Shown one piece after another: positions 33,204 to 33,636 of a stretch of DNA of 39,799 bases. This DNA is from an uncultured Clostridia bacterium (GTDB lineage: Bacteria; Bacillota; Clostridia; TANB77; CAG-508). Location: the NCBI GenBank assembly GCA_944389425.1, contig CALXMH010000012.1, forward strand, positions 1 through 39,799, in the 5' to 3' direction. Below the pieces are notes generated by a model. The model was not told where the DNA came from. It made no database searches and saw only the letters and a program-made list of their open reading frames with translations. A program made the position numbers and the translations under genes. How positions within the stretch are numbered: position 1 is the stretch's first letter; every line of letters begins with the position of its first letter.

Positions 33204-33636
33204 TTGACCTGATTTTTTAGTATTCTTCCCAGCACATAAATTAGAAAGGGAGTAATCTTGGATTTTCGCCATTTTGCTACTCAAACAAGGATTACTGTTT
33301 ATGTGTTTATGGCAATAAAACCTTGTTATTACCAAAGGAACTAAACTTCTTGGATACAAATCCTCTCGGAGTAGTCCGTAAACATACTCCCTGCTGGGAC
33401 AAAAGCCTTTAAACTTTTTTGTGTATCGAAGTGCTAAACCGAAACAACCAGAACCGCACGGAAAGAATTGTTCGCATTAGGCTCGCCTGTCGTGTTGTTA
33501 GATGCAAATACTCCCGCTGCCTCTCCATTTTCGTAGTTTCCACCACGTTTGAAAAATGGGTTGGAAGCATAACCGAAGTTCGAGTAATAACAGTTTAGTC
33601 CCTGTGCCAGTAAAGAATACTAAAAAATCAGGTCAA
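33204..33636 (-). other. 433-bp cassette with perfect 24-bp inverted ends carrying the DGR template
   Basis: Arms at 33204-33227 and 33613-33636 are perfectly complementary over 24 bases. They enclose the template repeat (33429-33588) and about 200 bases with local hairpins. No target-site duplication is visible. Transcribed on the minus strand, the ends would pair and make a closed RNA containing the template. A 24-codon frame (33272 to 33198) has no ribosome site and no recognisable domain. No other gene fits in 33115-33770. Confidence 0.75.
33429..33588 (-). repeat. DGR template repeat (TR)
   Basis: 160 bases aligning gap-free to the variable repeat at 33766-33925. It contains 41 adenines on the sense (minus) strand; 16 are substituted in the VR. 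None of the 119 other positions differs. Sense codons at the variable sites are mostly AAC/AAT, as in known DGR templates. The last 40 sense bases are adenine-poor and identical in both copies, as expected of the mutagenic-homing initiation end. Confidence 0.93.

Follow-up and report, generated by a model that had tools for sequence, protein, structure and literature searches.

An RT-less DGR template and target locus with a perfect 24-bp inverted repeat at both template ends in an uncultured Clostridia bacterium

Template, target gene and inverted repeat

We analysed a whole stretch of 39,799 nucleotides (hereafter, the window) from an uncultured gut-type Clostridia bacterium, whose genome assembly amounts to 1.44 Mb in 50 contigs and is 88.9% complete and 6.05% contaminated. 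The locus lies on the minus strand, which is also the RNA sense, and is represented by the following features, given in that sense:

33771-35522, minus strand: target gene (583 aa), with an FGE-sulfatase-like C-terminal domain under the Pfam cut-off
33766-33925, minus strand: variable repeat (VR), at the 3′ end of the target gene
33654-33669, minus strand: hairpin between VR and TR, putative counterpart by position of the BPP-1 stem-loop 3′ of VR (PMC12875486)
33613-33636, minus strand: 5′ arm of the inverted repeat
33604-33610, minus strand: 5′ side of the predicted inner extension of the outer helix (7 bp including 2 G-U), pairing with 33229-33235
33592-33603, minus strand: 5′ strand of the P1 stem, AGGGACTAAACT, covarying in relatives
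33429-33588, minus strand: DGR template repeat (TR), 160 nt with 41 A
33252-33405, minus strand: RT-14-like RNA (RF02921), the apparent DGR spacer or 3′ part of the template RNA
33336-33347, minus strand: 3′ strand of the P1 stem, AGTTTAGTTCCT, within the RT-14-like spacer
33229-33235, minus strand: 3′ side of the predicted inner extension of the outer helix
33204-33227, minus strand: 3′ arm of the inverted repeat
32239-33114, minus strand: unrelated downstream gene (VanW / SH3), with a promoter-like TTGACA-18-TATAAT of its own at 33185-33156

There are 16 mismatches between TR and VR, each at one of the 41 TR adenines, and the ORF at 33771-35522 terminates in VR, so that VR occupies the 3′ end of a protein gene as in a DGR. 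Neither an RT nor an accessory protein was found within the window and, for this reason, we considered the locus as an RT-less DGR template and target locus and not as a complete DGR. On the minus strand no sigma70-like promoter was found between VR and TR, and no terminator was found between 33050 and 33800. A PD-(D/E)XK nuclease family transposase (35835-36722) adjoins the target gene; further along the window, mfd is apparently divided into two ORFs (28611-31406 and 31477-32046, the UvrB-interaction N-terminal part being separate), by either a frameshift or an assembly error.

The first-pass annotation, made from the sequence of the window, had described a perfect 24-bp inverted repeat enclosing the template and its spacer, and this description was confirmed: TTGACCTGATTTTTTAGTATTCTT at 33204-33227 has its exact reverse complement at 33613-33636 (24/24), the arms are 385 nt apart, the outer length is 433 nt and the interval contains only TR and the spacer. 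Outward, the repeat extends to 28 nt at 96% identity. In 60 windows simulated with a first-order Markov model of the window composition, the longest perfect inverted repeat (with a spacer of 50-2000 nt) was 13-17 bp, hence a repeat of 24 bp is not a chance product. In 807,021 bases of related loci there were about 4-5 independent cases of inverted repeats of at least 24 bp and, therefore, a long inverted repeat alone is uncommon and not unique. What is odd about this one is its placement at both template ends, for which we estimated, from the repeat density, roughly 0.003 expected cases over 107 template hits. The arm sequence resembles no other repeat in the genome, and viral contigs gave no match to either the spacer motif or a 22-base part of the arm. 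Compared by eye, the arms could be read as split halves of a terminator like those of loci L019, L025 and L026, with which they have a short AAAAAATCAG stretch in common.

The RT-14-like spacer, the inner stem and the RT of the genome

The spacer of the window matched the whole Rfam model RF02921 (positions 1-144 of 144) with 45.5 bits and an E-value of 4.7e-5; as this is below the gathering score of 48.1, we named it RT-14-like, while the copy on contig C4 of the same genome scored 50.8 bits. RT-14 was found in 139 of 390 family genomes. We surveyed 80 regions, corresponding to 90 of the matches listed, a choice that favours high scores and multi-copy genomes. Counting rows, TR ended exactly one base before RT-14 in 38 of these 90 matches, with TR/VR mismatches almost all at TR adenines, whereas in three the TR match stopped 3 to 21 bases short; the remaining ones were at contig ends, in tandem arrays or without a VR in the stretch retrieved. 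Since TR stands directly before RT-14 in relatives, RT-14 RNA appears, on this positional evidence, to be the spacer, or 3′ part, of a DGR template RNA. We did not find this stated in the literature searched, which did not cover the original description of the RT-n motifs.

Tandem units of TR plus RT-14, about six in number and with differing TR sequences, lie upstream of Avd and RT at L069:5000-8600 (G225:C20), and similar arrays occur at L076, L072, L071 and L074. They are multi-template DGR arrays, whose TRs could themselves receive homing. Locus L080 has two oppositely oriented RT-14 units (101-244 and 8350-8493) on a single contig, with about 8 kb between them.

The flank just 5′ of TR, which is outside the Rfam match, pairs with a stretch inside RT-14 to form P1, with 12 of 12 pairs in the window. 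At least 10 of the 12 pairs were present in 83 of 100 loci, 8 of the 100 lacking the 3′ motif; shuffled flanks also reached 10 of 12 in 39 of 92 cases, so that the pairing count is weak evidence alone. In 56 distinct rows we observed several pairs changed on both sides, for example T-A (40) or C-G (10) at position 6 and A-T (39) or T-A (11) at position 7; four rows were apparently spurious (L145, one of L076, L084 and L016). We considered P1 as conserved and covarying because of these pair changes together with the constant motif and its constant position.

RT domains were found on three other contigs of the genome: C36, C6 and C4. C36 carries a target gene, a TR, a homologous RT-14-related spacer, an intact 330-aa RT with YMDD (RVT_1, 62 bits) and an Avd (NF033474, 88.7 bits, above the NCBIfam cut-off of 80). 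The target proteins of C36 and of the window are 53% identical over an alignment of 457 residues. The alignment between the window and C36 is continuous through VR, hairpin, TR and spacer, the 3′ end of TR (TAGCACTTCGATACACAAA) is identical, and the distance from the hairpin to P1, a stretch in which the 5′ arm lies, is 50 nt in the window vs 47 nt in C36. Given this collinearity, the locus is a paralogue of the C36 target and template unit in which RT and Avd are lacking. The arrangement on C4 is that of C36, except that the RT is split across two frames beside a TR/VR pair and Avd (L011:4207-5329, G000:C4); this second locus may depend on the RT of C36. C6 carries a second kind of DGR, whose TR and VR were read by eye. 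Just upstream of Avd and RT, L010:7274-7678 encodes a small protein with a match to MutS domain I (40.7 bits), and in L069 a small ORF of similar appearance lies before Avd.

The RT that the first-pass annotation had called missing is, thus, absent from the window and present elsewhere in the genome. Because C36 has an intact RT, an Avd and a related TR and RT-14, the RT-Avd complex of C36 most likely uses the window template in trans, as far as sequence comparison can suggest. Among the 53 matches flanked by 2 kb or more on each side, 11, the window included, were RT-less according to two RT queries and a motif scan, and none of the other 10 had arms like those of the window. These loci without such a repeat, together with the RT on C36, leave no need for the proposal that a portable template cassette would explain the lack of an RT.

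Known systems offer partial parallels. The available part of the BPP-1 study describes A-specific transfer from TR, a structured spacer 3′ of TR and an inverted-repeat stem-loop 3′ of VR, and Avd and RT have homologues in the genome analysed here; however, RT and Avd are adjacent in BPP-1 and on another contig here, and that text makes no mention of a 24-bp helix closing the whole template RNA (PMC12875486). Rfam RT-14 (RF02921) is like our spacer in the full-length match and in its position directly 3′ of TR in relatives, whereas the outer helix of the window is outside the model. In Thiohalocapsa PB-PSB1 there are several DGR loci in one genome, some of them RT-less and probably served in trans, and inverted repeats near DGR loci; unlike here, its RT-less loci matched the TR of another locus and its repeats match IS ends, whereas the window has a local TR and a repeat without further copies (PMC10907252). 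In Treponema denticola too, DGR components lie away from the RT, with the difference that these are remote VR genes and not a remote TR and spacer unit (PMC4891356).

The predicted outer helix and its conservation

As RNA, the arms would form an outer helix that begins with 24 perfect pairs and continues through a wobble pair and a bulge into a stretch of 7 pairs (2 of them G-U) reaching the edge of P1. The predicted minimum free energy was -138 kcal/mol (z = -5.78), with none of 100 shuffled sequences equally good; shuffling the 5′ arm cost about 28 kcal/mol, and removal of the outer helix did not alter the core fold, which retained 122 of 122 pairs.

We then considered 107 template hits, i.e. 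91 family hits including the window and 16 further loci, some of them cut by contig ends. An exact bracketing repeat of at least 12 bp was present in 6 of the 107; it was 24 bp long in the window and at most 16 bp in the others, the 16-bp case belonging to a tandem array, and no outer helix of the window type was present in the other 106 hits. For the 59 loci in which P1 could be placed (26 more were dropped because the pattern missed P1), the pairing of the 5′ and 3′ flanks had a mean of -9.80 kcal/mol for own flanks vs -9.78 kcal/mol for swapped ones. Only the window stood out, with -47.3 kcal/mol (own mean without it, -9.15), and 4 of the other 58 loci ranked in the top tenth. A general closing helix of DGR template RNAs was, hence, ruled out by the flank-swap test and the exact-repeat survey.

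As the outer helix is absent from relatives, it represents a local addition to, rather than a component of, the RNA of the family. The closed RNA with base-paired ends that had been proposed is accordingly predicted at this locus and not conserved; relatives that keep the template do so without the repeat, a situation that the first-pass annotation had itself named as speaking against its reading.

As to transcript ends, a local hairpin with 11 or more pairs follows the spacer in 14 of 16 close relatives (including L015, which has no T run), and one of 9 pairs follows it in the window, L022 and L023. The folding energy after the spacer was weaker than that of the window (-9.6) only in L023 (-6.6). 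L023 has neither a good terminator nor an outer helix, hence the outer helix is not needed in general.

Possible origin and role of the outer helix

We tentatively prefer, at slightly less than even odds, the reading of the outer helix as a local RNA feature by which the ends of a template used in trans are defined or protected. The locus is the template and target half of a DGR whose own RT was lost or never present. The target-gene transcript would carry the template RNA as its 3′ tail, and this RNA would then be used by the C36 RT-Avd complex. Against this reading stand the restriction of the outer helix to the window, its absence from L023 and the possibility that the VR changes predate RT loss. 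The arms would pair as an outer helix stacked on P1, which would fix or protect the template RNA at both ends, for instance in the manner of a processing stalk of the RNase III type. Such stalks surround precursor ribosomal RNAs, and a duplex of more than two helical turns is the usual length of an RNase III substrate; the 24 bp predicted here exceed two turns and a yardstick of about 22 bp. A helix of this length around a template in a transcript tail fits, we infer from the predicted fold, either an RNase III-type stalk or end protection. Among functions, an end-defining or protecting one seemed to us the most likely because no strong local terminator hairpin follows the spacer in the window.

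A serious if doubtful alternative is a neutral accident, in which about 28-38 nt from one side of the template were copied to the other by a strand switch or an inverted duplication, without function. The repeat is limited to a single locus and not conserved, long inverted repeats do occur in related DNA, at a few per 800 kb, the imperfect extension on both sides resembles a longer repeat in decay, and any inverted repeat would pair in RNA. The estimated rarity of a repeat at both template ends argues against an accident, and so does the way in which the helix meets P1 exactly without disturbing the core fold.

We considered it unlikely that the arms belong to an invertible switch, in which a site-specific recombinase flips the segment and the template RNA is made in the present orientation and not in the other. 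Perfect arms do surround a short segment, recombinase domains had 9 hits in the genome (4 tyrosine, 5 serine) and, since no promoter for TR was found inside the segment, inversion would silence TR. However, no recombinase adjoins the locus, the arms, as stated above, are unlike any other repeat in the genome, and the loci surveyed included no VR/TR pair whose template was reversed; the literature search gave no paper on an invertible DGR. The switch draws further support from a dispersed element of about 116 bp with inverted arms, which has 36 near-full matches in this genome (G000; for example, window 39133-39232 and L010:884-993), no copy in the one other genome of the genus examined and no report by Rfam at the gathering score. 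Its arms are long and variable between copies and stay complementary, i.e. they covary. Among 20 fetched copies, 15 were readable by script, and in 2 of these (L171 and L185) the core was, by eye, reversed relative to the flanks. Short segments between inverted arms may, accordingly, flip in this genome, which keeps the reading as a switch alive at low probability. A phase-variable hypermutation switch, in which flipping of the template would turn diversification heritably on or off while an RT elsewhere is common to several templates, is more improbable still.

The first-pass annotation had seen in the segment a small non-autonomous mobile unit, that is a MITE-like template cassette, a reading that is now very improbable. 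It could appeal to the terminal inverted repeats, to the presence of a dispersed inverted-repeat element in the genome and to Thiohalocapsa, where MITE-like and mobile repeats shape DGR loci (PMC10907252). Nevertheless, no second copy of the 24-mer exists elsewhere in the genome, whereas the 36 near-full matches of the dispersed element show how a multiplied repeat looks, and the locus is collinear with C36 across the supposed insertion edge. In 389 family genomes (up to 3 mismatches allowed) the 24-mer had four single hits with 3 mismatches each, equalled by the reversed-pattern control (5 hits in 4 genomes), so that the further copies of the ends which had been suggested as a check were not present above the control level. 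By eye, no flanking direct repeat or target-site duplication was visible at the arm edges. Synteny of the VanW gene gave no orthologous locus as an empty site, the best listed matches in relatives being at most 44% identical over part of the gene. A mobile element was largely rejected on copy number and collinearity with C36. Equally improbable is an assembly or chimera artefact, which the fragmentation and contamination of the assembly would allow: fold-back chimeras usually produce long palindromes, and here 385 nt separate the arms, which lie within a contig of 39.8 kb and have coherent flanks.

Overall, the locus, an RT-less template with an outer helix, looks not like a mobile unit but like a local version of a system already known. 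If the helix works as we tentatively prefer, it would show how a DGR template made away from its RT is released or protected, and would suggest a design for templates acting in trans. The outer helix itself is a feature of a single locus, and RT-14 as DGR template RNA, together with the tandem template arrays, may matter more. With RT-less and RT-bearing loci that have an RNA tail in common, the RNA features required for acceptance in trans become testable.
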